This document shows positions 2,256 to 29,172 of a stretch of DNA of 30,892 nucleotides, one piece after another. The notes under the pieces were generated by a model that had not been told where the DNA came from, did no database searches, and saw nothing but the letters and a program-made list of their open reading frames with translations. Made by a program: the position numbers and the translations under genes. This DNA comes from a virus. The DNA lies in the IMG/VR virus record IMGVR_UViG_3300023174_000471, positions 1 through 30,892 of that record; one strand, 5' to 3'. Each line of letters opens with the position of its first letter. The first letter of the stretch is position 1.

Positions 2256-2933
2256 AAACTTTATCAAATAATCAATACGGTCAACGGAAAATCGTATATA
2301 GGTATCACAAAACTTTCCATAACTGAGCGATGGAATGCTCATATCTCCAATTCAAGAAAACTTAAATATCCTTTGCATTTTGCTATAGTAAAGTACGGAT
2401 CAACTTCTTTTACAATTAATCTTTTAGAAGAAAATGAGGATAGAAAAGTTATCAGTGGATTAGAAGAACCTACCATTCAACGATTAAAAACACACATTAC
2501 ACAACATGGTTATAATGTTGCTAAAGGTGGTTATGGTGGTGATTTGGGGCTGGAGGCTACTTCAAAAAGAATTGAAACAATCAAAAACTATTCACCTGAA
2601 AGAAAAGCCAAACATCAAGAAAAGTTGCGGTTGCGTAATTTAGGTAAGACAAAAGAAAATGATGCCGGAAGACTATCACAATCAGAAAAAATAAAAGGTA
2701 ATTCTTTTAGAAAAAACATACCACATACCCCTGAATCAAGTTTAAAAATTTCTAGGGCAAATACAGGTAAAATACGATCCGAAAGCTCTAGACAAAAATA
2801 TAGTAATAGTGCTAAACTAAGAGGAACAGGGCCGCAACTACAAGGTAAAAAAGTAAGTTGTATTTGCTGTAAAAGAGAGTGGGATTTAGGTAACTTTACA
2901 CAACATATAAGGAAAAATAAAAATGTCTTTTAA
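2250..2933 (+). CDS. GIY-YIG homing endonuclease with NUMOD3-like repeats
   Basis: The 227-residue product starts with a GIY-YIG nuclease domain: L-Y-Q-I at 4-7, S-Y-I-G at 15-18, T-E-R-W with Arg27 (the I-TevI catalytic position), and an acidic L-E-E around 72 for the metal-binding Glu. H-G-Y-N-V-A-K-G-G closes the domain. Residues of about 100-190 contain NUMOD3-like DNA-binding repeats (for example K-I-S-R-A-N-T-G-K). The C-terminus has a C-x-C-C motif and later His, possibly a small zinc site. It is free-standing and inserted just upstream of folE, overlapping its start by 11 bp; the folE ribosome-binding site lies inside this gene. Confidence 0.9.
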   Translation: MYKLYQIINTVNGKSYIGITKLSITERWNAHISNSRKLKYPLHFAIVKYGSTSFTINLLEENEDRKVISGLEEPTIQRLKTHITQHGYNVAKGGYGGDLGLEATSKRIETIKNYSPERKAKHQEKLRLRNLGKTKENDAGRLSQSEKIKGNSFRKNIPHTPESSLKISRANTGKIRSESSRQKYSNSAKLRGTGPQLQGKKVSCICCKREWDLGNFTQHIRKNKNVF

Positions 2934-3603
2934 CAAAACCAAAACAGATCCTGAGCTAGGATTAAAGGTACACGCACATCTAGTTAAAATGGGTGTTGAA
3001 ACTCCTACTATTCCAAATGGATTGAGTAGAACAGATAAAATTGATATCATTGAAGCAAAGTTTACCGATATTATGAAAGCCTTAGGACTTGATTTGTCTG
3101 ATGATAGTCTTATTGAAACACCCAAGCGTGTTGCTAAAATGATGGTAGGCGAAACAATGTGGGGTCTTGATTACGAAGCATTCCCTAAATGTACAACAGT
3201 TGACAACAAGATGCAATACAACGAAATGGTTGTAGAGCGTAATGTTAATGTTCAATCTAACTGCGAACATCATTTTGTAGTTATTGATGGATTGGCTACT
3301 GTAGCTTATGTCCCTAAACAAAAAGTATTAGGGCTTAGTAAGATCAACCGTATCGTAGAATATTTCAGCAAAAGACCTCAAATTCAAGAGAGGTTAACAG
3401 AGCAGATTTTTCACACCTTACAGTTCATCCTTGATACAGAAGATGTTGCAGTTATGATTGATGCACAACACTATTGTGTAAAATCACGTGGTGTAGAAGA
3501 TACAGGTAGTAGTACTGTTACTTGTCGTTTAGGTGGTGGTTTCAAAACTGACCCTGCGGCACGTAGTGAATTCTTACAGATTGCTAATAAGGGTTGCAAA
3601 TGA
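2923..3603 (+). CDS. folE: GTP cyclohydrolase I
   Basis: FolE converts GTP to 7,8-dihydroneopterin triphosphate, the first step of both folate and 7-deazaguanine (preQ0) synthesis. The 226-residue product is close to the E. coli length. It shows S-N-C-E-H-H (zinc ligands Cys114 and His117), H-Y-C-V-K-S-R-G (third ligand Cys185), the [10 protein letters not shown] segment and the [10 protein letters not shown]-terminal helix. The start is preceded by AAGGAAAAATAAA, which lies within the homing endonuclease gene. It overlaps the downstream DfrB-like gene by ATGA, and queD and queE lie 2.7 and 5.2 kb further on. Confidence 0.95.
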
Positions 3604-5590: not shown

Positions 5591-6073
5591 ATGGCAAACA
5601 AAAAATTCTTTTCAACAAAAACATACAGACAAATAGGTCCTGTCGCATATCGTCAATGGCGTGCTGACAGTCATTGTAACTTAATTCATGGTTATGCTAT
5701 GAGTTTTCACTTTGAGTTTGAAGCTGATACATTAGATGCACGTAACTGGGTAACTGACTTCGGTGGATTACGACCACTCAAAGATAAACTAGAAGAATGG
5801 TTTGACCATACTCTATTAGTCGCACAAGATGATCCAATGCGTGAACATCTATTAGAACTAGGTCGTTTGAAACTAGCAAAGATTACAGAAGTAGAACGCA
5901 CTGGTTGTGAAGGTATTGCTGACTTCTTGTACGAATACGTTAACACAATCTTTTTACCTAATTGTGGTAGTGAAGAAGCAAAACGTGTTTGGTGCTGTAG
6001 AGTAGAAGTACGTGAGACTGACAGCAACATGGCAGGTCGTGGTGGTCACAGAGAAGATAGAGAGTTTGAATAA
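5591..6073 (+). CDS. queD: 6-carboxytetrahydropterin synthase (QueD)
   Basis: QueD turns dihydroneopterin triphosphate, the FolE product, into 6-carboxytetrahydropterin in preQ0 synthesis. The 160-residue product shows S-H-C-N-L-I-H-G-Y (27-35), V-T-D-F-G-G-L (54-60), the catalytic F-D-H-T (71-74), D-D-P (80-82), G-C-E-G-I-A (105-110) and a V-E-V-R-E-T strand (138-143). The classic H-G-H zinc motif is H-G-Y, so the third ligand may differ (His28 or His40 are nearby); I recall this variant in phage QueD-like proteins. It starts its own transcription unit and its stop overlaps the aldolase start (TAATG). Confidence 0.88.
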   Translation: MANKKFFSTKTYRQIGPVAYRQWRADSHCNLIHGYAMSFHFEFEADTLDARNWVTDFGGLRPLKDKLEEWFDHTLLVAQDDPMREHLLELGRLKLAKITEVERTGCEGIADFLYEYVNTIFLPNCGSEEAKRVWCCRVEVRETDSNMAGRGGHREDREFE

Positions 6074-7591: not shown

Positions 7592-8155
7592 ATGATTAAG
7601 CAAAAAATACTCAACAGTAAAGAACGAACGACTAAGCGTAGAAAAAGATCAGATTTGATGAAAGATTTTGGAATAAATGCTGACCAGTATGAGGCAATGC
7701 TAGTAGAACAAAATTATGTCTGTGCAATTTGTAGTAGACATGATATATGCAATAGGGATTTAGCAGTGGATCATTGTCATGTTACAAAAAAGGTAAGAGG
7801 ACTACTCTGTACCAATTGTAATATGGCACTTGGGAAGTTCCAAGATGATTTACAAAATCTATTAAATGCAGTAGAATACTTAAAGCGAGATTATAATGTA
7901 CCCAATGTTTTGGATTCAATTGAGCGAATTACGCACAATGATAGACCTAATTGGAAAATGATGGTAACTACTCCTAATGGAATGTTTCCTTCAATGATAC
8001 ATGCGGCAAAACATTATAATGTACATGAAACAACTGTTAGGGGATGGTGTTTACCTAACAGTAAACGAAAAAAAGAGGGATTCACTTGTGAAAAACTCTA
8101 TATATCAATGAACGATTTGAAAGAACATATAAATGGCAAACATAAAAGTAAGTGA
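7592..8155 (+). CDS. Endonuclease VII-like HNH homing endonuclease with NUMOD1-like motif
   Basis: The 187-residue product has an endonuclease VII-type His-Me finger domain: zinc pairs C-A-I-C (44-47) and C-T-N-C (73-76), the active-site V-D-H-C-H (59-63), K-V-R-G-L-L-C, and Asn75 in the C-N position. A helical region with F-G-I-N-A-D-Q-Y-E-A-M-L precedes it. The C-terminus (about 126-155) has T-P-N-G-M-F-P-S-M-I-H-A-A-K plus T-V-R-G-W-C, a NUMOD1-type DNA-recognition helix typical of homing enzymes. This argues for a mobile gene and against the T4 gp49 resolvase role. It overlaps queE by 23 bp and supplies the sequence upstream of the queE start. Confidence 0.85.
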   Translation: MIKQKILNSKERTTKRRKRSDLMKDFGINADQYEAMLVEQNYVCAICSRHDICNRDLAVDHCHVTKKVRGLLCTNCNMALGKFQDDLQNLLNAVEYLKRDYNVPNVLDSIERITHNDRPNWKMMVTTPNGMFPSMIHAAKHYNVHETTVRGWCLPNSKRKKEGFTCEKLYISMNDLKEHINGKHKSK

Positions 8156-8981
8156 ACTTTTTTATAGTATACAAGGAGAAGGCCGATATATCGGAGTACC
8201 AAGTATTTTCCTACGAACATTCGGATGTAACTTTAAATGTGCAGGCTTTGGTATGCCTAAAGGTCAATTAAGCACAGAAGTAGAAGATATTGCCTCAAGG
8301 GTTCATTATTATGATGATTATAAAAAATTACCTTTAGTCAGTACAGGTTGTGACAGTTATGCTTCATGGGATCCTAGATTTAAGCATCTTAGTCCTGTTC
8401 GCCCTACTGATGATATTGTTGACGATATTATGGCTATGCTTCCTAACAATCGTTGGATGGATGAACATCTTGTTATTACAGGTGGTGAACCTTTACTTGG
8501 CTGGCAAAGAGCATATCCTGACTTACTTTCAAACGAAAAAATGAGGGGTCTCAAAGAAATTACATTTGAAACTAATGGTACGCAAGAACTAAGTCAAGAC
8601 CTCACAACTTATCTACAACGCTGGAAGATCAATCGTGAAAAGAATGCACTTACATTTAGCGTAAGTCCTAAACTAAGTATCAGCGGTGAGAAGTGGGAAG
8701 ACGCAATTTGCCCTAGTATTATTCGTCAATATGAAAGTATTGGTTTTGTATATCTTAAATTTGTTATTGCTACTAAAGAAGATGCACTAGAAGCAGATAA
8801 AGCAGTAAAAGAATTTCGTACAGGTGGATTCAGAGGTCCAGTATACTTTATGCCATGCGGTGGTGTAGAATCTGTATACAGCATGAATGCAAAGAACGTA
8901 GCAATTGAAGCAATGAATCGTGGTTATCGTTATAGCGATAGGCTCCAGGTGCCACTATTCAAAAACGCATGGAATACGTAA
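8133..8981 (+). CDS. queE: 7-carboxy-7-deazaguanine synthase (radical SAM QueE), split cysteine motif
   Basis: QueE rearranges 6-carboxytetrahydropterin to 7-carboxy-7-deazaguanine, using SAM and a [4Fe-4S] cluster. The 282-residue product shows the QueE N-terminus S-I-Q-G-E-G-R-Y-I-G-V-P-S-I-F-L-R and V-I-T-G-G-E-P-L-L (SAM contact). The normal CX3CX2C is altered: C32-N-F-K-C36 is followed by A-G-F (Phe39 in the third Cys place), and the C-D-x-x-x-x-W motif appears at T-G-C73-D-S-Y-A-S-W. An insert of about 34 residues thus separates Cys2 and Cys3. The start is the ATG at 8133 within the HNH gene. A 14-bp palindrome follows the stop. Confidence 0.88.
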   Translation: MANIKVSELFYSIQGEGRYIGVPSIFLRTFGCNFKCAGFGMPKGQLSTEVEDIASRVHYYDDYKKLPLVSTGCDSYASWDPRFKHLSPVRPTDDIVDDIMAMLPNNRWMDEHLVITGGEPLLGWQRAYPDLLSNEKMRGLKEITFETNGTQELSQDLTTYLQRWKINREKNALTFSVSPKLSISGEKWEDAICPSIIRQYESIGFVYLKFVIATKEDALEADKAVKEFRTGGFRGPVYFMPCGGVESVYSMNAKNVAIEAMNRGYRYSDRLQVPLFKNAWNT

Positions 8982-14891: not shown

Positions 14892-14920
14892 TTGACTTTA
14901 TTGTGTAGATATGCTACACT
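14892..14920 (+). promoter_or_regulatory. Sigma-70-type promoter for the UvdE-like gene
   Basis: TTGACT (14892-14897), a 17-bp spacer, and TACACT (14915-14920). Initiation near 14927 rules out the in-frame ATG at 14911 as start and supports the ATG at 14950. Confidence 0.7.
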
Positions 14921-14928
14921 ACATCTAT

Positions 14929-14936
14929 TATTTATC
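14929..14936 (-). promoter_or_regulatory. T4-type late promoter (GATAAATA, minus strand) for the internal-protein operon
   Basis: TATTTATC on the plus strand reads GATAAATA on the minus strand, about 56 bp before the ATG at 14873. It overlaps the leader of the divergent UvdE-like gene, so early plus-strand and late minus-strand transcription start within the same 50 bp. Confidence 0.5.
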
Positions 14937-14949
14937 ACTTTGGACTCCT

Positions 14950-15981
14950 ATGCACTCTTTTGACATTACCACTAAACGTATCGGTTTCGCTTGCAAATGG
15001 GCAGAAATCAACAAGAAAGGTGAGATTGTATCAGCCGAAGGACTTAACACAGGCGGTACAACTCATGCTTGGGCAAAGCGTAATACACGTAGTGTTGTAG
15101 AAGAAAAGATCATGGATGTTGCTAAACGCAATATTATGAATACTCACGCACTTGTTAAAAAAGTTGCTACACTTGACCCACAATTACGTATGTTGCGTCT
15201 TACTAGTGATATGTTTTCATTCTATACTATGGATGAATACAAAGACTTTTGGCATTCAACTGATGTACAGAATAGCTTAGAACGTTGGATGGCACCGATT
15301 GGTGAAACTGCACGTGCTAATGATGTACGACTAAGTTTTCATCCTGACCAATTTGTAGTTTTAGCAAGTGACCGTGAAGAAGTAGTAAATAAGAGTATAG
15401 ATGAATTTGAATATCATTGTGACATGGCTCGTTGGATGGGCTATGGTCAGAAGTTTCAGGATATGAAAATCAATGTACACATCTCTGGTAGAAAAGGTCC
15501 TCAGGGCATCAGAGATGTTTATGGTAGACTTAGCCCCGAGGCACGAAACACACTTACATTAGAAAATGAGGAATACACACATGGACTTACAGACTGCTTA
15601 TCATTATCTGACCTTGTACCGACGGTTATGGACATACATCACCACTGGATTCGGGAAGGTGAGTACATTGAGCCTAATGATGACCGTGTTAAGAGGGTCA
15701 TTGACAGTTGGCGTGGCGTTCGTCCTACTTTACATTATTCTGTCAGTAGGGAAGATTGTCTTGTTGAACACTCCCGAAATGAGCGTCCCTCCCATGATGC
15801 GTTGATTCTAGCAGGACACAGTAAACAAAAACTACGTGCCCATTCGGACTACTATTGGAACGATGCTGTTAACGATTGGGCATTGACATTTATTGATAAA
15901 TTTGATATGATGTGCGAAAGCAAAGCTAAAAATTTAGCCAGCTTTAAATTACTAGAAAGATACAAATGTTTGAAAAATTAA
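14950..15981 (+). CDS. uvdE: UvdE/UvsE-like UV damage endonuclease
   Basis: UVDE enzymes are metal-dependent TIM-barrel endonucleases that nick DNA 5' of UV photoproducts. The 343-residue product shows R-L-T-S-D-M-F-S (83-90), L-S-F-H-P-D-Q-F (128-135), I-N-V-H-I-S-G-R-K-G (174-183), T-L-E-N-E-E (203-208) and V-M-D-I-H-H-H-W (226-233). These supply the His/Asp/Glu metal ligands in the expected order. The K-R-I-G-F-A-C N-terminus is also typical. The ATG at 14950 lies 30 bp after the promoter's -10. It overlaps the next gene by 16 bp. Confidence 0.85.
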   Translation: MHSFDITTKRIGFACKWAEINKKGEIVSAEGLNTGGTTHAWAKRNTRSVVEEKIMDVAKRNIMNTHALVKKVATLDPQLRMLRLTSDMFSFYTMDEYKDFWHSTDVQNSLERWMAPIGETARANDVRLSFHPDQFVVLASDREEVVNKSIDEFEYHCDMARWMGYGQKFQDMKINVHISGRKGPQGIRDVYGRLSPEARNTLTLENEEYTHGLTDCLSLSDLVPTVMDIHHHWIREGEYIEPNDDRVKRVIDSWRGVRPTLHYSVSREDCLVEHSRNERPSHDALILAGHSKQKLRAHSDYYWNDAVNDWALTFIDKFDMMCESKAKNLASFKLLERYKCLKN

Positions 15982-16428: not shown

Positions 16429-16457
16429 TTGACATTAAATCCATTATCTGTTACATT
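16429..16457 (+). promoter_or_regulatory. Sigma-70-type promoter for the helicase-HNH gene
   Basis: TTGACA (16429-16434), a 17-bp spacer, and TACATT (16452-16457). The ATG at 16483 follows an AAGGAATTAC ribosome-binding site. Confidence 0.7.
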
Positions 16458-16482: not shown

Positions 16483-18402
16483 ATGAGTCACTTATCTCCA
16501 AATACAATTAAACTAACAACTGCAACAAAGCAGATTGATTTAGCTTTTATGAGACCTCTACAACGTCAATATTTGCACGATGAAATTTTTAAATCTATCA
16601 GTGATTCTGAATTGGCTAATGACCAAAGAATTACCATTATCCCTGCAGGAACTAATGCAGGTAAATCTACTGTTATTACTAAGATTACGATTCCTTATGT
16701 AGTCTATCTTGATTCTTCAGTTAAATGTATTACTTTTACATCTCCTGATTCGGGATGTGTTGATGGTCCTTATCATAAGTTTCATGCTGAGTGGAATGGC
16801 AAACGTATCACATGTGCTGACGGTACTATTAAACAATTTAGGGCCCGTCGTAAAGACGATATTAAATTGTCTTGGATGATCGGTGAAGCTACCTCAGACG
16901 AGATTGTTGACGTATGGTTTGTATCTACTCAATGGTTACGTCAGATTTGGAGTGAATATAGTGAACCCTACATGCCAAAATCCATTGGTGTACCACAATA
17001 TATTTTTGTAGATGAAATTCATTTTGGTATGGGCACAATTGACGCTACTACAATCTTTTTGGATCAAGGCCGTAATAACAACAACTTTGATCCAAAATGG
17101 TTGCCTACTATTTATGGTATGGCAGTTGCTGGATCACGTGTTTTAGGTTATACAGGCACTGCTACTGTTAGTCAGCAAGGTGGAACTGCTTTAGGTGCAG
17201 GCGTGTTTAAATCATTGACACCAATGCCTGAAAATAAAAACACCAGTGTGTTTGCAGAAATTTTACCTATCAAAACTGATATGTTTTCATCTACCTACCG
17301 TAGTGAGTTATTGAATACATACGACTTGTCTAAGTTAGTTTATGAATTGTCTGTTAACAAGTGTGATAAATTTTTCAAAGAGATTGATGCAGACACCTGG
17401 CAAAAAGCAATGGATATTGGCATTGTAAAAATCATGCCCGGTGCATTCTTTAAGTTTGGTCGTGAAGATGCTACAAAATCTATTCCATTATATAGTACAC
17501 GCGGAAGGAGAAATGATTTCCTATCATTTGCCAGTGACTTAAATGCTAATATTGGTATTGTGACCAGTGATGAAAAGAAATACTTTAAACCAAATTACGG
17601 AAGACAGTACAAAGATGCATATTCTATCATTAGAGAGGCAAACGATCCATCAAATATTGTTGATCCTTTTTTGTTAAGCGTTATTATGCAAGGTAACATG
17701 GGTTGGGATATTCCTCGTCTGAAACAAATTTCATTCTTGGGTTATCCTAGTGCAAAGAATGTTTTCTTGATGCAACTTCAAACTATGGCACGTGCAAAGC
17801 GTTTAGTGTGTGATGTATATGACCATACTGATAAAGCACGACAAATTGCAGAATTGGATGTGTCTTCTGAACAGAAAGTTCTATTGGCTAAGTTTGTTGT
17901 ATTTGTAAACACGGCTAATATTGTTATTCCTAACGATTCACCATTGTTGGATAAAGCATATAATAACTTTCGTAAAAACATGTATACACCTGATCAAGGT
18001 TTAGACCTGTATTTAAACATCATTAATACGCATGTGCCTGTTACGAAGAACAATCTGTCTAAAGTAACCAAACCTCACTTTCACATGGGTTACAATCCCG
18101 GTTCACAAAATCAAATAAACAAGAAAGATTATTGTGAACATTGTACCGAATTGGGATTAGTTAACGACAAGGGAGTTACCTTCTGCAAAATTATTGGGAG
18201 AGTACAAGCAGAAGATGAGGCAGGACGTAAGTTGACTGATGTTGAATTTAACGAGTATTGGAAAGGCCAGTTAAAATTGGATCATCGTAATGGTGATCGT
18301 ACTGATAATCGTCCTGAAAATCTATATACACGTGATGGTATCAGCGATGGGTTGAAAACCTTAATTCATAAGGATTACTTGAATAGCTACAAAGCGGCTT
18401 GA
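16483..18402 (+). CDS. SF2 helicase-like ATPase with C-terminal HNH-like module
   Basis: The 639-residue product has helicase motifs in order: Walker A A-G-T-N-A-G-K-S (55-62), DEIH box F-V-D-E-I-H-F-G (175-182), G-Y-T-G-T-A-T (222-228) as motif III, M-G-W-D-I-P-R-L (406-413) as motif V, and Q-L-Q-T-M-A-R-A-K-R (431-440) as motif VI. The last 100 residues hold C-E-H-C (551-554), a later Cys568, and L-D-H-R-N-G-D-R-T-D-N-R-P-E-N-L (599-614), the core of HNH/His-Me finger nucleases. It has its own promoter and precedes the exonuclease, so a DNA-processing role is likely. DNA or RNA as substrate is unclear. Confidence 0.7.
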   Translation: MSHLSPNTIKLTTATKQIDLAFMRPLQRQYLHDEIFKSISDSELANDQRITIIPAGTNAGKSTVITKITIPYVVYLDSSVKCITFTSPDSGCVDGPYHKFHAEWNGKRITCADGTIKQFRARRKDDIKLSWMIGEATSDEIVDVWFVSTQWLRQIWSEYSEPYMPKSIGVPQYIFVDEIHFGMGTIDATTIFLDQGRNNNNFDPKWLPTIYGMAVAGSRVLGYTGTATVSQQGGTALGAGVFKSLTPMPENKNTSVFAEILPIKTDMFSSTYRSELLNTYDLSKLVYELSVNKCDKFFKEIDADTWQKAMDIGIVKIMPGAFFKFGREDATKSIPLYSTRGRRNDFLSFASDLNANIGIVTSDEKKYFKPNYGRQYKDAYSIIREANDPSNIVDPFLLSVIMQGNMGWDIPRLKQISFLGYPSAKNVFLMQLQTMARAKRLVCDVYDHTDKARQIAELDVSSEQKVLLAKFVVFVNTANIVIPNDSPLLDKAYNNFRKNMYTPDQGLDLYLNIINTHVPVTKNNLSKVTKPHFHMGYNPGSQNQINKKDYCEHCTELGLVNDKGVTFCKIIGRVQAEDEAGRKLTDVEFNEYWKGQLKLDHRNGDRTDNRPENLYTRDGISDGLKTLIHKDYLNSYKAA

Positions 18403-18427
18403 CATTAAATCAAAATAGTAGTATACT
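18399..18427 (+). promoter_or_regulatory. Sigma-70-type promoter giving a probably leaderless exonuclease mRNA
   Basis: TTGACA (18399-18404, overlapping the TGA stop of the helicase gene), a 17-bp spacer, and TATACT (18422-18427). The ATG lies at 18434, only 6 bases past the -10, so initiation would fall on or next to the start codon. Confidence 0.7.
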
Positions 18428-18433
18428 TACAGC

Positions 18434-19432
18434 ATGAAATACGCATTAATTGACACAGCAAACACATTCTTCCGTGCCCGTCACATAGCATCACGTAATA
18501 GTGATACATGGGAAAAGATTGGCATGGCCCTACATCTTACACTTGCATCATGTAATCAAATAGTTCGCAAATTTGGTATTGACCACGTTGTGTTTTGTCT
18601 TGAGGGCCGTAGCTGGCGTAAGGACTATTACGAGCCATATAAGAAAAATCGTATTGTTGATACTCAAGCACAAACTCAGGCTGAAAAAGAAGAAAATGAA
18701 ATGTTCTGGGACACTTATGAAAAGTTCACAACCTTCTTGCGTGAAAAAACTAACGTGTCAGTATTGCGTGATCCTAAGGCAGAAGCGGATGACTTAATTG
18801 CCCGTTTTATTCACTTGCACCCTGAAGATGAACATTTCATTATTAGTAGCGATAGTGATTACATTCAACTGATTACAGAAAATGTGAAACAGTACAATGG
18901 TATTAGTAATCAATTAATTACTACCGAAGGGTACTTTGATGACAAGGGTAAAATCGTCAAAGATAAGAAAACAGGTGAACCTAAATTGTTAGGTGACCCG
19001 CAATATATTCTATTTGAGAAATGTATGCGGGGTGATGCAACCGACAATGTATTTTCTGCTTTTCCCGGAGTTCGTAGTAAAGGTAGTAAGAATAAAGTTG
19101 GATTGATGGAAGCTTATGCTGACCGTAATAAACAGGGCTACTCGTGGAACAACATGATGTTGCAACGCTGGTCTGACCACAATGATGTGGAACATCGTGT
19201 ACGTGATGATTATGAACGTAATCGGGTATTGATTGATTTGACTTGTCAGCCTGATGAGGTGAAACAATCAGTAGATAAATATATCCGTGAAGGTGTGCGT
19301 ACAATTAATACACCTCAAGTTGGTATTCACTTTATGAGATTCTGTGGAAAATATGATTTGACTAAGATTAGCGAGCAAGCAGAAACTTATGCAAAATGGT
19401 TAAACAATCCTTATCAAGGCGTACTAGCATGA
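18434..19432 (+). CDS. 5'-3' exonuclease / flap endonuclease (PIN-FEN family)
   Basis: The 332-residue product carries the FEN/T4 RNase H acidic cluster: L-I-D-T-A-N-T-F-F-R (5-14), F-C-L-E-G with Glu57, E-A-D-D-L-I-A (117-123), S-S-D-S-D-Y-I-Q-L (138-146), and R-G-D-A-T-D-N-V-F (199-207) leading into the helix-turn-helix F-P-G-V. Such enzymes remove RNA primers and 5' flaps during replication. There is no ribosome-binding site before the ATG, and the promoter is immediately upstream. It overlaps the next gene by ATGA. Confidence 0.88.
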   Translation: MKYALIDTANTFFRARHIASRNSDTWEKIGMALHLTLASCNQIVRKFGIDHVVFCLEGRSWRKDYYEPYKKNRIVDTQAQTQAEKEENEMFWDTYEKFTTFLREKTNVSVLRDPKAEADDLIARFIHLHPEDEHFIISSDSDYIQLITENVKQYNGISNQLITTEGYFDDKGKIVKDKKTGEPKLLGDPQYILFEKCMRGDATDNVFSAFPGVRSKGSKNKVGLMEAYADRNKQGYSWNNMMLQRWSDHNDVEHRVRDDYERNRVLIDLTCQPDEVKQSVDKYIREGVRTINTPQVGIHFMRFCGKYDLTKISEQAETYAKWLNNPYQGVLA

Positions 19433-19683
19433 ACGAACGAATTAAACTACTTGCTGAACAGACTAAAAAGTATGCTCTTGATGCTATGATTAAAATCACA
19501 GACAAGGAACAAGCATTGAAAGTTTATTCAGAAACTTATGATACAAAGTTCGCCGAGTTGATTGTTCATCAAATGTTGGATATCACTGATGCACATACAG
19601 AGGTGTTCCAAACTGATCGGGACCGGGCCCTTATTGAACACATCAAACAATCCGTGAAACAACATTTCGGAGTTGAAGAATGA
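19429..19683 (+). CDS. KFAELIV-family small phage protein, copy 1
   Basis: The 84-residue product has the family layout: M-N-E-R-I-K-x-L-A-E-Q start, T-K-F-A-E-L-I-V core and K-Q-H-F-G-V-E-E end. It is predicted to be mostly helical and acidic. It overlaps the exonuclease by ATGA. Other copies lie at 19868, 21615, 21875, 22132 and 29169, with divergent ones at 23067 and 29389. Function unknown. Confidence 0.8.
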   Translation: MNERIKLLAEQTKKYALDAMIKITDKEQALKVYSETYDTKFAELIVHQMLDITDAHTEVFQTDRDRALIEHIKQSVKQHFGVEE

Positions 19684-19871
19684 AAACACCAAGATGGTAT
19701 AGTGCCGATGAAATCCGAACATGGAGTGTTCAAGCCACTGACAATAGAGGCTTTTATAAATGTTGCAGACCAATGAGTTATCCTGGATGGAATATTCGCA
19801 AACGATTGAAGATGGCTTGGTGGGTGTTTACTGGCAAAGGTGATGTTTTGATGTGGGAGGTTGAAGAATGA
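19680..19871 (+). CDS. Small phage protein (AWWVFTGK motif), unknown function
   Basis: The 63-residue product contains R-K-R-L-K-M-A-W-W-V-F-T-G-K-G-D-V-L-M-W-E, a pattern I recall in many marine phage small proteins. It overlaps both neighbours by ATGA, sitting between two KFAELIV-family genes. It may be a peripheral membrane or aromatic-rich binding protein, but nothing fixes a role. Confidence 0.75.
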   Translation: MKTPRWYSADEIRTWSVQATDNRGFYKCCRPMSYPGWNIRKRLKMAWWVFTGKGDVLMWEVEE

Positions 19872-20119
19872 ACCAACGAATTAAAGAACTTTCCGAACTG
19901 GCTGATGAATATGCTGAACAAACTGTTCATTATTACATGGGTCAGTTTGATGGATTGACTTGGGAAGGTAAAATCAAACAAACAAGAGATACAAAGTTCG
20001 CCGAGTTGATTGTGCAAGACTGTGCCAATTTTGTGCGTGAAGAATATGACCATGTTGACGCAGAGGGTATTGCATGGTACATGGAAATCAAATATGGTTT
20101 GCATGGAGATTATGCATGA
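19868..20119 (+). CDS. KFAELIV-family small phage protein, copy 2
   Basis: The 83-residue product shows M-N-Q-R-I-K-E-L-S-E-L and D-T-K-F-A-E-L-I-V-Q-D-C. Its C-terminus (M-E-I-K-Y-G-L-H-G-D-Y-A) has diverged from the H-F-G-V-E-E ending. The 20-nt core AAGTTCGCCGAGTTGATTGT is identical to copies 1 and 3', showing recent duplication or gene conversion. ATGA overlaps on both sides. Confidence 0.8.
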   Translation: MNQRIKELSELADEYAEQTVHYYMGQFDGLTWEGKIKQTRDTKFAELIVQDCANFVREEYDHVDAEGIAWYMEIKYGLHGDYA

Positions 20120-20424
20120 TTGACTATCACGAAGCCATTAAAGAAATGCACAAAGGCAATGTGGTCAAATATGTGGGCACAGTCAACGGTAATGTGATGA
20201 CAGATCGGGGCTGGAGTTGGTGTATGTGTCGTGGATGCGTTTTTCCCTACAACGGCGAGCCCTTATGGAACATGGGGGGCCGAATGGTTTATGATCCAGA
20301 CTTTCGTTATGTTCTAACAGGTGAAACTGTGGATCCTAGAGCTTGGCGGCCAGAGGAGAATAGAGACCGTAAAGATATCAAGAGCAAGTTAGGTTATAGT
20401 CGCATAGGATTGGGCAATATATGA
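20116..20424 (+). CDS. Phage protein with WSWCMCRGC motif, unknown function
   Basis: The 102-residue product begins M-I-D-Y-H-E-A-I-K-E-M-H-K-G-N-V-V-K-Y and has G-W-S-W-C-M-C-R-G-C-V-F, then D-F-R-Y-V-L-T-G-E. The C-x-C-x-x-C group might bind a metal. The first ~20 residues loosely recall the start of DUF2829 proteins, but the rest does not match. The ATG at 20116 (ATGA) is chosen over an in-frame ATG at 20074. Confidence 0.7.
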   Translation: MIDYHEAIKEMHKGNVVKYVGTVNGNVMTDRGWSWCMCRGCVFPYNGEPLWNMGGRMVYDPDFRYVLTGETVDPRAWRPEENRDRKDIKSKLGYSRIGLGNI

Positions 20425-20633
20425 AAAACACAGTAAGATTAAATCGTAGAGAAGTTGAACATTTATATGAATTGTTTAATAAGTTACATGAATCAGGCGA
20501 CCATGGGTCAGTAGTATTGTGTGAAGAAAGTGGTAGTGGTATTGGTGCAGTATTAACCGCTACATTTGTAATAACTCACATGGGTGTAGAAGGTGAATTT
20601 ACTTGCACCATTAGTGATGAAAGTAATTGGTGA
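20421..20633 (+). CDS. Small phage protein, paralogue of the product at 9800
   Basis: The 70-residue product shares the L-Y-E-L-F helix, the E-E-S-G-S-G-I-G motif and an acidic ending (S-D-E-S-N-W) with the 9800 protein. The two lie 10.6 kb apart and on either side of the minus operon. Function unknown; ATGA overlap upstream. Confidence 0.75.
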   Translation: MKNTVRLNRREVEHLYELFNKLHESGDHGSVVLCEESGSGIGAVLTATFVITHMGVEGEFTCTISDESNW

Positions 20634-20639
20634 TATATA

Positions 20640-20801
20640 ATGGGTTGGCGATATGAAGTTAATGTATGGGATAGTCCAGTTGATGGGCCTTACTATTGGT
20701 TACAGATTTACGCTGGACCAAGCGTAATCCGAGCCATCTACAATATGTGGTGGGCAAAACGCAACGGTTGGAAATGTATCAGACTGGAGTATAGACCGTG
20801 A
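20640..20801 (+). CDS. 53-residue aromatic phage protein, unknown function
   Basis: This short gene encodes M-G-W-R-Y-E-V-N-V-W-D-S-P and later A-I-Y-N-M-W-W-A-K-R, with seven Trp or more in 53 residues. It lies 6 nt after the previous stop and ends in a GTGA overlap with the next gene, which supports its reality. It is below the usual size cut-off and easily missed. Confidence 0.7.
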   Translation: MGWRYEVNVWDSPVDGPYYWLQIYAGPSVIRAIYNMWWAKRNGWKCIRLEYRP

Positions 20802-21031
20802 GAGTAGAATTCAATCAAGGTGTGCCTGAAGGGTGTGTTGAATGGTTGTATGAGAATGTGGGCAGAGGCAATCTTACCAATACCAAAGACTGTGCCGCGT
20901 ATGCTTGGTTTTATGATCGGGTGTTTATTCCCAAACCTAGTAGTCCTCAAAATGAAGGACGATATGTGCCTACTATCACAGTCAAAGATCCCAAGTTGGC
21001 AACTTGGTTTGCGTTGAGGTGGGCATCGTGA
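20798..21031 (+). CDS. Small phage protein, unknown function (GTG start)
   Basis: The 77-residue product starts at a GTG in a GTGA overlap. It contains P-E-G-C-V-E-W-L-Y-E-N-V-G and ends D-P-K-L-A-T-W-F-A-L-R-W, the latter a recurring C-terminal helix in phage small proteins. Globular, acidic; no catalytic motif. Confidence 0.75.
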   Translation: MRVEFNQGVPEGCVEWLYENVGRGNLTNTKDCAAYAWFYDRVFIPKPSSPQNEGRYVPTITVKDPKLATWFALRWAS

Positions 21032-21387
21032 GTACTAGTGAAATCAAGGGCTTGTTCTTCTTGCCTTCTGGTAGATATATCCCCATGGGTCTAAATATCT
21101 TACAGAAACTTTGGTGGCAATTTGTACCCGGAGTTGTAGTCAATGTTCGTTGGCCCAGAGAGGGATGGGTAGTATTAAATAAGGACAGCACCGGAGGTCA
21201 AGTTTCTACTTTGAGTGCTGATCCAAACGATCACTATCGTCCCTGGATGGAACAGCATGTTGGCCGGCAAGGTTGGGATTGGAACTGGGGTATGGCTGAT
21301 CGTGATGCCACAGACAACAGGTTAACCATAAAGATTAGACAACGGTATGCCAAGTATGCTACAATAGCGGCAATACAATGGAGTTAA
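21028..21387 (+). CDS. Phage protein with DPNDHYRPWM motif, unknown function (GTG start)
   Basis: The 119-residue product contains D-P-N-D-H-Y-R-P-W-M-E-Q-H-V-G-R-Q-G-W-D-W-N-W, which I recall as a conserved block in phage proteins without function. It looks like a beta-rich globular protein. The GTG at 21028 (GTGA overlap) is preferred over the TTG at 21004. Confidence 0.75.
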   Translation: MSTSEIKGLFFLPSGRYIPMGLNILQKLWWQFVPGVVVNVRWPREGWVVLNKDSTGGQVSTLSADPNDHYRPWMEQHVGRQGWDWNWGMADRDATDNRLTIKIRQRYAKYATIAAIQWS

Positions 21388-21390
21388 ACG

Positions 21391-21618
21391 ATGAAAGTCA
21401 TTATTGAAAAACCGGACGGATCGCCCTATATGAGTTTGCGTGAGGATGATAGATTAGCCTATATCCAAATACACAACTATGATTTTATGGGTGATCCCGT
21501 AGAGTTTAACTTTGATCGTAGAACTATTCCTGCCTTGATTGATGCACTTACTAGATTAAATCGCGGAGAAGATGACGCAACCATTCGTACCCATTACTTT
21601 AACCAGGATATAAAATGA
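21391..21618 (+). CDS. Small phage protein, unknown function
   Basis: The 75-residue product is a short beta-then-helix protein: K-V-I-I-E-K-P-D-G-S, Y-I-Q-I-H-N-Y-D-F, then I-P-A-L-I-D-A-L-T-R-L-N-R-G-E. The C-terminal helix resembles that of small phage regulators, but no DNA-binding motif is clear. It overlaps copy 3 of the KFAELIV family by ATGA. Confidence 0.72.
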   Translation: MKVIIEKPDGSPYMSLREDDRLAYIQIHNYDFMGDPVEFNFDRRTIPALIDALTRLNRGEDDATIRTHYFNQDIK

Positions 21619-21878
21619 CACATTACTCAAACACACGCAATCCCATTGACTTTCCAAAAAAGAAAGACATACCCTTCTTAGAAAAGTTTGCCGCACAAAG
21701 TCTTGTTGAACATGACGGAGAACTGATTTTCAGCAAAGAACGGTTCGCCGAGTTGATTGTTAAACGAATCATTGAAAACATCGAATGTCACGCTGACATG
21801 TATGACACGCCTGACACACGGTTTATCTGTGAGAAAATTGTAAATTCTGTGAAATTTGATTTCGGAGTTGAAGAATGA
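21615..21878 (+). CDS. KFAELIV-family small phage protein, copy 3
   Basis: The 87-residue product has a longer, different N-terminus (N-P-I-D-F-P-K-K-K) but the same R-F-A-E-L-I-V-K-R core and F-D-F-G-V-E-E end. The DNA around the end (TTCGGAGTTGAAGAATGAA) is shared with copies 1 and 4. First of three consecutive copies joined by ATGA. Confidence 0.8.
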   Translation: MTHYSNTRNPIDFPKKKDIPFLEKFAAQSLVEHDGELIFSKERFAELIVKRIIENIECHADMYDTPDTRFICEKIVNSVKFDFGVEE

Positions 21879-22135
21879 ACGAACGATTAGAACAACTTAA
21901 AAAGCAGGCTGTTAACTACGCAGAAGAAGTATTTGACTATCATGGTAAAGACTATCGAGAAATTGTAATGGAAAAGTTCGCCGAGTTGATTGTTCGGGAA
22001 TGTATTGATAAGATTACAACCTACGATTTGGTTCCTGGGCATTCAGCCAAGTGGGAAGATATCTACGAAATTCACGCTAGATTGCTACAAGATTTAGGTG
22101 AAGAATTAAAAGAACATTTCGGAGTTGAAGAATGA
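21875..22135 (+). CDS. KFAELIV-family small phage protein, copy 4
   Basis: The 86-residue product is the most typical copy: M-N-E-R-L-E-Q-L-K-K-Q-A start, E-K-F-A-E-L-I-V-R-E-C-I-D core, E-L-K-E-H-F-G-V-E-E end. Middle of the tandem trio. Confidence 0.82.
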   Translation: MNERLEQLKKQAVNYAEEVFDYHGKDYREIVMEKFAELIVRECIDKITTYDLVPGHSAKWEDIYEIHARLLQDLGEELKEHFGVEE

Positions 22136-22389
22136 AAGATTTAAAATTTACAACTGCAAGTGATTATATGAATACCGGCACTAAATTTGATGACCTAATG
22201 TATCGTGCAGGACTAACTGCACAGGGATGTTGGGATGAAATGGATGACTATGACCGTAAGGCTATTGAAAAGTTTGCCGAATTGATTGTTCGGGAATGTA
22301 TTGACACCGTATCTGATTGTAGTGTAGAATACTGCACCAGACCACAGATTGTTAGTGAGATTAAAGAACATTTCGGAGTTGAACTATGA
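22132..22389 (+). CDS. KFAELIV-family small phage protein, copy 5
   Basis: The 85-residue product has E-K-F-A-E-L-I-V-R-E-C-I-D-T and E-I-K-E-H-F-G-V-E-L. Its core DNA matches copy 4 over a long stretch from the core into TTCGGGAATGTATTGA, with a few silent changes. The N-terminal third is unrelated in detail, so the conserved part is the C-terminal half. Confidence 0.82.
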   Translation: MKDLKFTTASDYMNTGTKFDDLMYRAGLTAQGCWDEMDDYDRKAIEKFAELIVRECIDTVSDCSVEYCTRPQIVSEIKEHFGVEL

Positions 22390-23282: not shown

Positions 23283-23560
23283 CTATATCTGCTCCTACCC
23301 CCTTGCTTAATTATACCTTAAGGTATAATATGTTAAAAGATAATATGGAATTAGCAAAAGTTCGGGATATTGAAAAGGCTAAAGAGTTAGAAAAAGAAAA
23401 GATATTAAAAACACAATTGGAAAGACGATTAGTACAAGACAACAATTTCCAAGAACATATTGACGAAATTAAACGTTATGAATCATTAAAACTTACCCAA
23501 GAATATCAAGAGTACCGATATTTATATAATCTTGGTACAAAGGTTGACATATACATTTAA
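23279..23560 (+). CDS. Coiled-coil-like phage protein, unknown function
   Basis: The 93-residue product is mostly one charged helix (about residues 20-80, rich in Lys, Glu, Leu, Gln) with coiled-coil character. It overlaps the preceding gene by ATGA. The last codons contain the -35 of the next promoter. Confidence 0.7.
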   Translation: MTISAPTPLLNYTLRYNMLKDNMELAKVRDIEKAKELEKEKILKTQLERRLVQDNNFQEHIDEIKRYESLKLTQEYQEYRYLYNLGTKVDIYI

Positions 23561-23589: not shown

Positions 23590-24051
23590 ATGACAAAAAC
23601 ACTTATTGCAAAACCCGTAGTTAAAAATCAATTTTGGATTGTTACTGATGGTAAAGAAAAAGTCGGCAATGTATTAGCTGACGGATCAGGATTTGAAGTA
23701 AAATTGAATGGCAATAAAAGCCATTATAAAAACACTAATGCTATTAAACGTAGGACAAATATTGAGTTTGAAATTGTAAAAAAAGCAGACAAAACTAAAC
23801 ACGATTTGCCCTTTAAGGTATATCCTACAACAGATAAAGTTTTTAATAGTATGTTAGATATTAAACGTAAATTGCATCTATTTACCACAGGCCCAAAAAG
23901 CAAATGCTATCATGCCGCAGGCTGGTTTAATATTCAACAAGGTAATGAAAGTGAAACTATTTTTTGCCCTAAATATATCTTTATTCAACGTTATCCTTAT
24001 CAAGGACCATACAAAACTGAATTTGATGCTAAAAAAGCGATAAATACTTGA
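23590..24051 (+). CDS. Conserved-type phage protein, unknown function
   Basis: The 153-residue product contains K-P-V-V-K-N-Q-F-W-I-V-T-D, L-P-F-K-V-Y-P-T, R-K-L-H-L-F-T-T-G-P-K-S-K-C-Y-H-A-A-G-W-F and C-P-K-Y-I-F-I-Q-R-Y-P-Y-Q-G-P-Y. I recall these blocks from T4-like cyanophage and related genomes without a function. Two cysteines and a histidine could bind metal, but this is a guess. It leads a new transcription unit. Confidence 0.78.
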   Translation: MTKTLIAKPVVKNQFWIVTDGKEKVGNVLADGSGFEVKLNGNKSHYKNTNAIKRRTNIEFEIVKKADKTKHDLPFKVYPTTDKVFNSMLDIKRKLHLFTTGPKSKCYHAAGWFNIQQGNESETIFCPKYIFIQRYPYQGPYKTEFDAKKAINT

Positions 24052-27270: not shown

Positions 27271-27300
27271 AAAAAATGCCCCGTTTTTGGGGCTTTTTTA
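27271..27300 (+). terminator. Strong intrinsic terminator
   Basis: GCCCC (27278-27282), loop GTTTTT, GGGGC (27289-27293), then six T (27294-27299); the flanking A-run (27271-27276) extends the stem against the T-run. The best terminator in the window. Confidence 0.9.
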
Positions 27301-27310
27301 TACCCAAAAT

Positions 27311-27371
27311 TTGACAATAAATGGACTTAGTGCTACAATAGAATCTTAGACAGTTAGATAAAGGACATGAA
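27311..27371 (+). promoter_or_regulatory. Promoter-leader cassette, copy 1
   Basis: TTGACA (27311-27316), a 17-bp spacer, and TACAAT (27334-27339), followed by a 32-nt leader (AGAATCTTAGACAGTTAGAT then AAAGGACATGA) to the ATG at 27372. Confidence 0.85.
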
Positions 27372-27704
27372 ATGACTAAGTTTAGCAAAGATAGTTTTTA
27401 TGGTACAGAGTACATTAACTACACTATGCCCGATGGTGCAAGCAAGTTTGTAGCCCGTTTCAAATATGCTAAAGGTGGCAAAGCAAGTTTCCTTACATTC
27501 CTTACAAAGAACTTTACAGTTGAGGAATACTTCAGCCGTTTGGACAAAGGTGAGTCTCCCCTCCCAATCTTGCAATCTAAAGGTTACATGCAACCCCATA
27601 TCAAAAAGATGTTGAAAGAACAGGGTTACCCAGTTACTAATGCAGGATTTGAACAGTTAGTCCAGGATAATGTTGCAAAAACGCAACAAAGATTAGCCGC
27701 TTAA
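27372..27704 (+). CDS. Conserved-type phage protein (KNFTVEEYF motif), unknown function
   Basis: The 110-residue product contains F-L-T-K-N-F-T-V-E-E-Y-F, G-E-S-P-L-P-I-L-Q-S-K-G-Y, P-H-I-K-K-M-L-K-E-Q-G-Y and T-N-A-G-F-E-Q. I recall these blocks in marine T4-like phages. It has its own early-type promoter, so probably acts early after infection. No catalytic motif. Confidence 0.8.
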   Translation: MTKFSKDSFYGTEYINYTMPDGASKFVARFKYAKGGKASFLTFLTKNFTVEEYFSRLDKGESPLPILQSKGYMQPHIKKMLKEQGYPVTNAGFEQLVQDNVAKTQQRLAA

Positions 27705-27706
27705 AT

Positions 27707-27767
27707 TTGACAATAAATGGGTTTGGGCTTATAATAGAATCTTAGACAGTTAGATAAAGGACACGCA
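27707..27767 (+). promoter_or_regulatory. Promoter-leader cassette, copy 2
   Basis: TTGACA (27707-27712), a 17-bp spacer, and perfect TATAAT (27730-27735), with the same 32-nt leader to the ATG at 27768. The leader differs from copy 1 only at its last bases. Confidence 0.88.
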
Positions 27768-28085
27768 ATGACTACATTCACAGATGAAAAATTTGACTAC
27801 TACAATCAGGTACGTGAGGATTTGGATTTGCTTGCAGTTTGGTCAATCTACGAGGTTGAGAACTTAAGTGAGCCGCATCCGTTTGTGGGTGTAGAAAAAG
27901 TTATCTATCGTGCTTATGGTTCCGGAGATCACGAGGTTACTATTGAGGGCAATACTTGGAAGTCATTGTACATTGCGGCAGATAAACTTATCCGTGAAAG
28001 TGGTGATAACCATCATATTTTTATTGAAACTTTTAAACAAAGCTCTATTGCACCGGAAATCTTATTTATATCAACTGGTTCCTAA
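27768..28085 (+). CDS. Small acidic phage protein, unknown function
   Basis: The 105-residue product is acidic and aromatic (D-E-K-F-D-Y-Y-N-Q-V-R-E-D-L-D-L-L-A-V-W-S-I-Y-E) with a strand-helix segment W-K-S-L-Y-I-A-A-D-K-L-I and H-H-I-F-I-E-T-F. I do not recognise a family. The perfect -10 of its promoter suggests strong early expression, so host-takeover activity is possible but unproven. Confidence 0.75.
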   Translation: MTTFTDEKFDYYNQVREDLDLLAVWSIYEVENLSEPHPFVGVEKVIYRAYGSGDHEVTIEGNTWKSLYIAADKLIRESGDNHHIFIETFKQSSIAPEILFISTGS

Positions 28086-28087
28086 AT

Positions 28088-28148
28088 TTGACAATAAATA
28101 AATTTGGGTATATAATAGAATCTTAAACAGTTAACTAAAGGACTAAAC
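28088..28148 (+). promoter_or_regulatory. Promoter-leader cassette, copy 3
   Basis: TTGACA (28088-28093), a 17-bp spacer, and perfect TATAAT (28111-28116), with a 32-nt leader (AGAATCTTAAACAGTTAACT then AAAGGACTAAAC) to the ATG at 28149. Confidence 0.88.
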
Positions 28149-28415
28149 ATGAAAGCACTACAATCATTTATTGACCAGAAGAATCACTGGAACAGTTTCT
28201 TCAAGGGTCCACAGTACGAAATTGCTACTCAAGCTGGTCGTCAACGTGTTGCGGATATGATTGATTCGGCTCTTAGCCCAGAGAATCTTACTTGCGACGG
28301 TGAGTTGCCCCGTGCAGAAGTTAACCGTCGTTACAAGGAATTGATGACAGCGGCCAAACAATTGAAGAAGTTGGACCCTTCAGTTACTTTTTACGAATAC
28401 GAAACTGAAGTTTAA
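28149..28415 (+). CDS. Small phage protein, unknown function
   Basis: The 88-residue product is helical: A-L-Q-S-F-I-D-Q-K-N-H-W-N-S-F-F-K-G-P-Q-Y, then Q-R-V-A-D-M-I-D-S-A-L, then E-V-N-R-R-Y-K-E-L-M. Expressed from cassette copy 3. The next gene starts 10 nt downstream, probably on the same mRNA. Confidence 0.78.
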   Translation: MKALQSFIDQKNHWNSFFKGPQYEIATQAGRQRVADMIDSALSPENLTCDGELPRAEVNRRYKELMTAAKQLKKLDPSVTFYEYETEV

Positions 28416-28425
28416 GGAGTTGATG

Positions 28426-29172
28426 ATGCCTGGATTTTATAATGTATCAAATATGACTAGCCGTCAAATTCAACGTATGGGTCACGCAGATGATAATGGT
28501 AGTGATTACTATCGTGCTAAAACTAGAACAAACAAAGTTGTAGTTAATCACAATGCCGATGACGTATGGAATGCGGCATGTGCGGCACAACGTATTAATG
28601 GCAGTTATATCAAGTTGAGTATGATTTCCGAATCGGATCCTACAGAAACAAAACTATCCAATCGTATGATTGTTGAACAACTGTTAGCCGATCAATCAGG
28701 TATCACTGATGAAGACCGTGAACAAGGTAAAAAGGTTCGTGCGTTTTATCAGGCATTGACATTCAAAATCTTGCAGGGTAAACATTTGACCGATTTTGAC
28801 AACACCGCAATGTTAATTGCTAATCGTGATATTATTACTAGCACCTATGATATTGCTGTTATTGCTAGTTTACCATCATGCTATGAGCGTGGTGTTGAAC
28901 GTCAAACAACAGAACAACGAGTTAACTTTGCTACAGGTGGTTTCATTGGTAAAATAGGTGATAAGGTAAAACTTGAAATTGAAGTTATCAAGTGTACATA
29001 TTCACAAAGTTATAATGTATTCTTTGTTACTGGAATTACTGAACAGGATCAACCGGCGTTCTTTAGTTATAAGGAAAAAGTGCCCACAGGAGACACAATG
29101 AACATTTTTGGTACTGTTAAAGCACATAGAGATAACATTACTCAACTTAATCGTGTAAAGGTGATTGCGTGA
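28426..29172 (+). CDS. Conserved-type phage protein, unknown function
   Basis: The 248-residue product has a helical first half and a C-terminal beta-rich domain: S-C-Y-E-R-G-V-E-R-Q, F-I-G-K-I-G-D-K-V-K-L-E-I-E-V-I-K-C, Y-N-V-F-F-V-T-G-I-T, and G-T-V-K-A-H-R-D-N-I-T-Q-L-N-R-V-K-V. The last part resembles an OB-type barrel, so DNA binding is possible. The ATG at 28426, 6 nt after AAGGAG, is preferred over the ATG at 28423. Confidence 0.75.
   Translation: MPGFYNVSNMTSRQIQRMGHADDNGSDYYRAKTRTNKVVVNHNADDVWNAACAAQRINGSYIKLSMISESDPTETKLSNRMIVEQLLADQSGITDEDREQGKKVRAFYQALTFKILQGKHLTDFDNTAMLIANRDIITSTYDIAVIASLPSCYERGVERQTTEQRVNFATGGFIGKIGDKVKLEIEVIKCTYSQSYNVFFVTGITEQDQPAFFSYKEKVPTGDTMNIFGTVKAHRDNITQLNRVKVIA

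Follow-up and report, generated by a model that had tools for sequence, protein, structure and literature searches.

Why should three consecutive genes that otherwise appear unrelated be preceded by the same 61-bp promoter and leader? The question arises in a virus record of 30,892 bases, here called the window (the whole stretch of DNA that was analysed), which we treat as a 30.9-kb fragment because its relatives are far longer. The features at issue are as follows.

27278–27293, + strand: terminator-like hairpin followed by a T run (intrinsic type), directly 5′ of cassette 1
27311–27371, + strand: cassette 1 (−35 at 27311–27316; −10 at 27334–27339; predicted +1 at about 27346–27348; leader with AAAGGAC)
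27372–27704, + strand: gene 1 (family F0), 110 aa, phrog_22119, confident predicted fold
27707–27767, + strand: cassette 2, starting 2 nt past the stop of gene 1
27768–28085, + strand: gene 2 (family F16), 105 aa, swapped cargo gene
28088–28148, + strand: cassette 3, starting 2 nt past the stop of gene 2
28149–28415, + strand: gene 3 (family F4), 88 aa, right border of the gene 2 slot
28420–29172, + strand: gene 4 (family F2), 250 aa, not preceded by a cassette, conserved flank on the right of the slot

The anatomy given in a preliminary description of this DNA is accurate. The distance from TTGACA (27311, 27707 and 28088) to ATG (27372, 27768 and 28149) is 61 bp in all three copies, the −35 is identical and the −10 nearly so (TACAAT, TATAAT and TATAAT in copies 1, 2 and 3) at a constant 17-nt spacing, and cassettes 2 and 3 start 2 nt past the TAA of the previous gene (27704 and 28085). 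The genes behind them are unrelated, as had been stated: the three proteins show no mutual BLASTP similarity at E ≤ 100, which rules out gene duplication as the cause of the copies. Compared over 72 nt, copy 2 is 88% and copy 3 is 75% identical to copy 1. The repeat begins about 5 nt 5′ of TTGACA and takes in the spacer between the hexamers; an A-rich stretch lies just 5′ of the −35, the hexamers are consensus, a TG precedes the −10 in one of the three copies, and copy 1 is the only one with a hairpin on its 5′ side. The unit pattern has three matches in the window, whereas 100 dinucleotide shuffles give none. Together with the reversed-sequence controls and long-record counts given below, these shuffles rule out chance similarity of the copies.

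The encoded proteins say little about function. Gene 1 is 49% identical, over 65% of the query, to a protein found in the Sinorhizobium phages phiM12, phiM7, phiM19 and phiN3, which we take to be T4-superfamily phages, and the sole structural match to its predicted fold is the phiM12 protein S5M6N8, itself without assigned function. The structure model of gene 2 is of middling confidence (pLDDT 77). Searched against PHROGs and Pfam, the cassette genes match only families without a function, except for one AAA-type ATPase family.

The cassette is far from private to this window. A search for further copies, chosen beforehand as the check on the idea, found at least 120 IMG/VR stretches with promoter and leader (pattern TTGACA-N17-TAYAATAGAATCTTA). 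A promoter model of 40 positions scored above 16 bits 593 times in 200 overlapping loci (1.97 Mb) and not once in the reversed sequences, a wide gap between signal and null, and a looser promoter pattern matched 24 of 25 long virus records, its reversed control pattern none. One 524-kb record holds 45 promoter matches, and copies lie on both strands of long records. The fetched loci contain 468 non-identical promoter copies; 436 copies with a leadered ORF stand upstream of genes from no fewer than 105 protein families. A single leader 14-mer is shared by 26 families (83 loci), a figure to be read with the bias of all leader-type counts, since the leader was itself part of the bait for fetching copies. 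Copies within one locus are barely more alike than copies from different loci (0.698 versus 0.670). Among ten promoter-bearing long records searched, three encode the major capsid protein of T4, Gp23 (PF07068); these are the three largest (348, 352 and 524 kb), and the other seven may be fragments.

A BLAST search of 50,697 phage records detected no similar element; the 69-nt consensus yielded short partial matches there, with E values of 2 to 6 among the best 40 of 141. Four cassette motif strings do not occur in the literature searched. The genome collection held one exact promoter match (L203), on a Clostridia MAG contig, of which the 701 bases inspected resemble, by eye, common bacterial sequence. 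We take this match as chance, and reject the idea of a host element copied by phage.

Conservation runs well past the promoter, as had been claimed: across 187 distinct copies with the window-type leader it extends from about −5 to +54. The core consensus of these copies joins an extended −35, TTGACAwTAAAT, to the spacer AATAAATGGnTTTGGGTA and the leader AGAATCTTArACAGTTAaATAAAGGA. Distances to the start codon are bimodal among the 468 copies. The ATG lies 58–63 from TTGACA in 380 (at 61 in 125 and at 62 in 109) and at exactly 35, without a leader, in 26 copies that belong to several unrelated families (for example L015:2336, L020:5455 and, on the minus strand, L055), with few ATGs between +35 and +58. 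As +35 falls six nt past the −10, these 26 copies probably give leaderless mRNAs, and the position probably marks the start of transcription. Genes are packed closely against the element: a same-strand upstream ORF ends between −70 and +15 in 412 of 436 copies, its stop lies 1–5 nt ahead of TTGACA in 136 of the 436, and in 154 the TGA within TTGACA is itself the stop, 132 of these ORFs being at least 60 codons long. On our preferred reading, the unit is a phage promoter of consensus sigma70 type, probably early, joined to a short leader without structure and a Shine-Dalgarno site. From the consensus sigma70 hexamers we infer that the genes behind it are strongly and early expressed; sigma70 use, early timing, promoter strength and a role of the leader in translation are all predictions of this kind.

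Whether the cassettes merely accompany the genes or also mark where genes are exchanged can be read at the place now occupied by gene 2. Gene order around gene 1 was laid out in 80 loci, L165, a partial match, having been dropped; 34 of the 80 enter the slot analysis, and the other 46 lack the full gene 1–gene 3 arrangement (in L133 it is cut by the contig end). Between F0 and F4 the slot has five states: empty (12 loci), F16 (10), F17 (7), F54 (3) and F75 with F17 (2). A tree built from the flanking genes (34 rows, 25 of them distinct) requires at least 10 changes of state, against a minimum of 4, and well-supported branches force more than one change each for empty, F16 and F17. Even the nearest relatives of the window, with flanks 87% identical, carry different cargo in the slot.

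If cassettes are joints, the cassette of an empty slot should be a chimera, and all three empty haplotypes (12 loci) are, with the left flank of a cassette that follows gene 1 and the leader of one that precedes gene 3. Six loci combine the spacer GGATTTGGGCT, found in 9 of 20 post-gene-1 and 0 of 20 pre-gene-3 cassettes of occupied loci, with the leader AAACAGTTAAACA, found in 14 of 20 pre-gene-3 and 0 of 20 post-gene-1 cassettes. One locus combines the spacer GGGTATTCTGC (4/20 post, 0/20 pre) with another leader (2/20 pre-gene-3, 0/20 post-gene-1). The remaining five have the spacer GGCTTTGGGTA (0/20 post, 8/20 pre), which places the switch further left. Post-type spacers in some empty haplotypes and a pre-type spacer in another therefore mean at least two breakpoints. 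L151 and L160, the two loci with double cargo, were placed on the tree and left out of the chimera table. Such junctions would fit either gain or loss of cargo, the direction not being readable from them. A second slot, in L009, holds an extra gene amid three cassettes that share one identical spacer. The same locus contains a 69-bp partial tandem duplication of the cassette, and one of its copies has the −10 TATACT.

The same division is seen across cassettes at large. For pairs of near-identical genes whose upstream neighbours differ (11 pairs from 6 families, 4-fold divergence 0.03), divergence is 0.275 in the spacer, 0.082 in the leader and 0.66 in the flank; for pairs with the same neighbour (12 pairs from 8 families, 4-fold 0.046) it is 0.114, 0.026 and 0.07. 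Flank and spacer follow the neighbour upstream; the leader remains with the gene that it precedes. A breakpoint map over all copies gives a clear difference for the upstream flank (0.118, bootstrap range 0.041 to 0.191) and a borderline one for discriminator and leader (−0.077, range −0.156 to 0.004). Turnover, with 52 of the 200 loci dropped as near-duplicates, is not raised at cassette intervals (10 of 14 variable versus 59 of 98 others, P 0.56), a comparison with greedy gene calls and few intervals. As far as the sequences go, the cassettes are recombination joints; because turnover at cassette-bordered intervals is not higher, a role as hotspots is unsupported. The suggestion of a module spread by recombination is supported, in that unrelated genes share the cassette, cargo swaps, and the junctions fall inside it.

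We think it likely that large uncultured phages of T4 type use the cassette phage-wide as a promoter-leader part, which also serves as a joint between genes. The distribution, the conservation, the swapping and the chimeric junctions are plain in the sequences themselves. Each copy would consist of an extended −35 and a consensus −10 on either side of a semi-conserved spacer, followed in most cases by an unstructured leader of about 25 nt with a terminal Shine-Dalgarno site. Host sigma70 RNA polymerase would probably transcribe the cassettes early, and every small accessory gene, having its own cassette, would have its own transcript. Two short blocks, the −35 extension and the −10/discriminator, are common to all copies and would allow the cassettes to act as joints at which recombination links genes. 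A gene could then be gained, lost or exchanged with promoter and ribosome-binding site left intact. Homology, and not just selection, probably sets the positions of the joints. A possible, still tentative extension makes this a system of standard parts, in which upstream gene with spacer and leader with downstream gene would assort independently at an invariant two-block core, and the core would have exchangeable outputs, leadered (58–63) or leaderless (35). If so, accessory genes would be expressed as soon as they are recombined in.

Selection alone could leave a similar picture, although we consider this unlikely. An optimal promoter and leader would be kept or re-evolved, recombination would be incidental, and junctions elsewhere would break expression and be lost. 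T4 early promoters are also widely conserved past the hexamers, according to PMC2988021, and the lack of excess turnover at cassettes speaks for this reading too. The leader likewise changes more slowly than 4-fold sites, at about 0.55 of their rate (0.116 at a 4-fold divergence of 0.19, 0.193 at 0.35 and 0.329 at 0.56), pointing to moderate constraint that may come largely from the Shine-Dalgarno site. What selection alone does not supply is exchange. Discrete leader types on the common promoter (AGAATCTTA..., AGAGTCTTATTCAG..., ACTTGTATTGA... and ACATACATAGACAG...) are common to unrelated genes, and a single gene family may bear different types in different phages; the exact chimeras of the slot need exchange besides point mutation; and so do near-saturated spacers that adjoin almost unchanged genes.

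The leader could also be a putative binding site for a phage protein that would place the cassette genes under joint control, for instance an RNA stabiliser or a translational repressor of the RegA kind. This is a doubtful reading. It would account for conservation 5′ of the Shine-Dalgarno site in the AGAATCTTA type, where the ACAG block is about 97% conserved, but the other leader types share little past the Shine-Dalgarno region and 26 copies have no leader. The leader also lacks structure: the mean fold z-score is +0.46 (138 of 436 leaders, base-shuffled control), that is, less structured than shuffled sequence, and a search of Rfam gave no family, just a chance sub-threshold hit. In the window, one leader folds with z −2.4 and the other two with about +0.4 to +0.5. 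The fold z-scores and Rfam together lead us to reject a structured or riboswitch-like RNA. The earlier proposal of a functional leader thus keeps moderate support, from slow divergence relative to 4-fold sites and the Shine-Dalgarno-like AAAGGA, and is weakened by the missing structure, the exchangeable types and the leaderless minority.

A true PeSL of T4-like phages, a unit of early promoter and stem-loop terminator, would explain copy 1, which is a hairpin followed by a promoter, and would suit T4-type phages with gene shuffling. Terminator-like hairpins are indeed enriched on the 5′ side of cassettes (37 of 434 have one at a distance of up to about 75 nt, versus 5/418, 10/403, 1/436 and 3/436 at control offsets). 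Still, the hairpin is missing in more than 90% of copies, copies 2 and 3 of the window included, and copies without it begin right at the previous stop, so that we regard membership of this class as rather improbable. Finally, local tandem duplication inside a single phage is barely credible as the source of the three copies, despite their succession and the partial tandem copy in L009, and is refuted by copies on both strands of long records ahead of unrelated genes, each window copy having orthologues at the corresponding position in related loci.

Several other features of the window deserve mention. An exonuclease gene at 18434, about 49% identical to homologues in jumbo phages such as PA5oct, has its ATG exactly 35 nt past a TTGACA (18399–18434: TATACT, six nt, ATG), for which a leaderless mRNA is predicted; its promoter shares TTGACATTAAAT with the cassette and does not have the cassette leader. 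Two further promoter-like sites also come without the shared leader: one at 16429, with TTGACATTAAAT, ahead of an HNH-containing gene of 639 aa, and one at 23544, with TTGACATATACAT, ahead of a gene at 23590. The HNH_3 segment within the 639-aa protein (16483–18402) may belong to a homing endonuclease, as may, by eye, a GIY-YIG-type ORF (2250–2933) and an HNH-type ORF (7592–8155). A folE gene (2923–3603) with QueD-like (5591–6073) and QueE-like (8133–8981) genes, the latter two below NCBIfam cut-offs, would make up a partial deazaguanine (queuosine-type) pathway, and a UvdE/UvsE-like UV damage endonuclease (14911–15981) is likewise below its NCBIfam cut-off. A small repeated gene family spans 19396–22389, recognized by eye from 'KFAELIV' and a 'HFGVEE'-like tail at 19396, 21615, 21875 and 22132, with a similar gene at 29169.

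The cassette is real and widespread, and its features are well accounted for by a phage promoter-leader part that doubles as a marker of recombination joints. Its value is threefold. First, it offers a clear, countable natural record of gain and loss of small accessory genes in large phages, with slot junctions readable at base level inside a 60-bp expression part. Second, the promoter model, which scores no hit once the sequence is reversed, is a specific marker of accessory-gene arrays in large uncultured phages, in which most functions still lack an assignment. Third, it provides a simple testable hypothesis on expression and recombination at cassettes.

How does the element compare with known systems? 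The conserved spacer and leader of T4 early promoters apparently differ from those of the cassette. The account of those promoters describes composite sigma70 promoters with extra conserved regions, and the cassette resembles them in its excellent sigma70 −35 and −10, in conservation past the hexamers and in many copies per genome (PMC2988021). It differs in having the TG of the UP/−35/TGn/−10 composite before the −10 in just one of the three window copies and in being undetectable in phage records by BLAST. Two archaeal viruses offer parallels. The class I intergenic repeats of halovirus HF2, about 58 bp long and ahead of genes, are promoters proven by reporter (PMC8707807); they are likewise short promoter-bearing repeats before genes, the promoter being a predicted one here, whereas the HF2 repeats hold their genomic positions across the genus. 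In HGTV-1, a motif with a TATA box and an inverted repeat precedes most ORFs of a region and was proposed to act in gene regulation and shuffling (PMC3950731). The likeness lies in a motif ahead of many ORFs and in the idea of shuffling, and the difference, apart from the archaeal host, in the inverted repeat. Among T4 relatives, the CBA120 authors state that early promoters were not identifiable by informatics (PMC3184105). This suggests that not all members of the group have such elements.

The closest comparison is with PeSLs, linked to the names of Arbiol et al. 2010 and Comeau et al. 2014, which are reportedly 'mobile regulatory cassettes' of T4-type phages. In T4-like phages they reportedly mediate shuffling and occur at high density where genes are shuffled (PMC4503421). 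The element described here is likewise a promoter repeated between accessory genes of T4-type phages (predicted to be early in our case), with consensus hexamers at 17 nt among its 468 copies. As for shuffling, joints lie within the cassette, yet turnover at cassettes shows no excess. The conserved partner differs, being a downstream leader with a ribosome-binding site rather than an upstream stem-loop, and the stop of the previous gene often touches or overlaps the −35. Because the stem-loop is so generally missing, we do not file the cassette as a member of the class, although it appears PeSL-like in its working. Promoter cassettes that shuffle are already known from PeSLs, and the one described here is apparently a variant mostly without the stem-loop.
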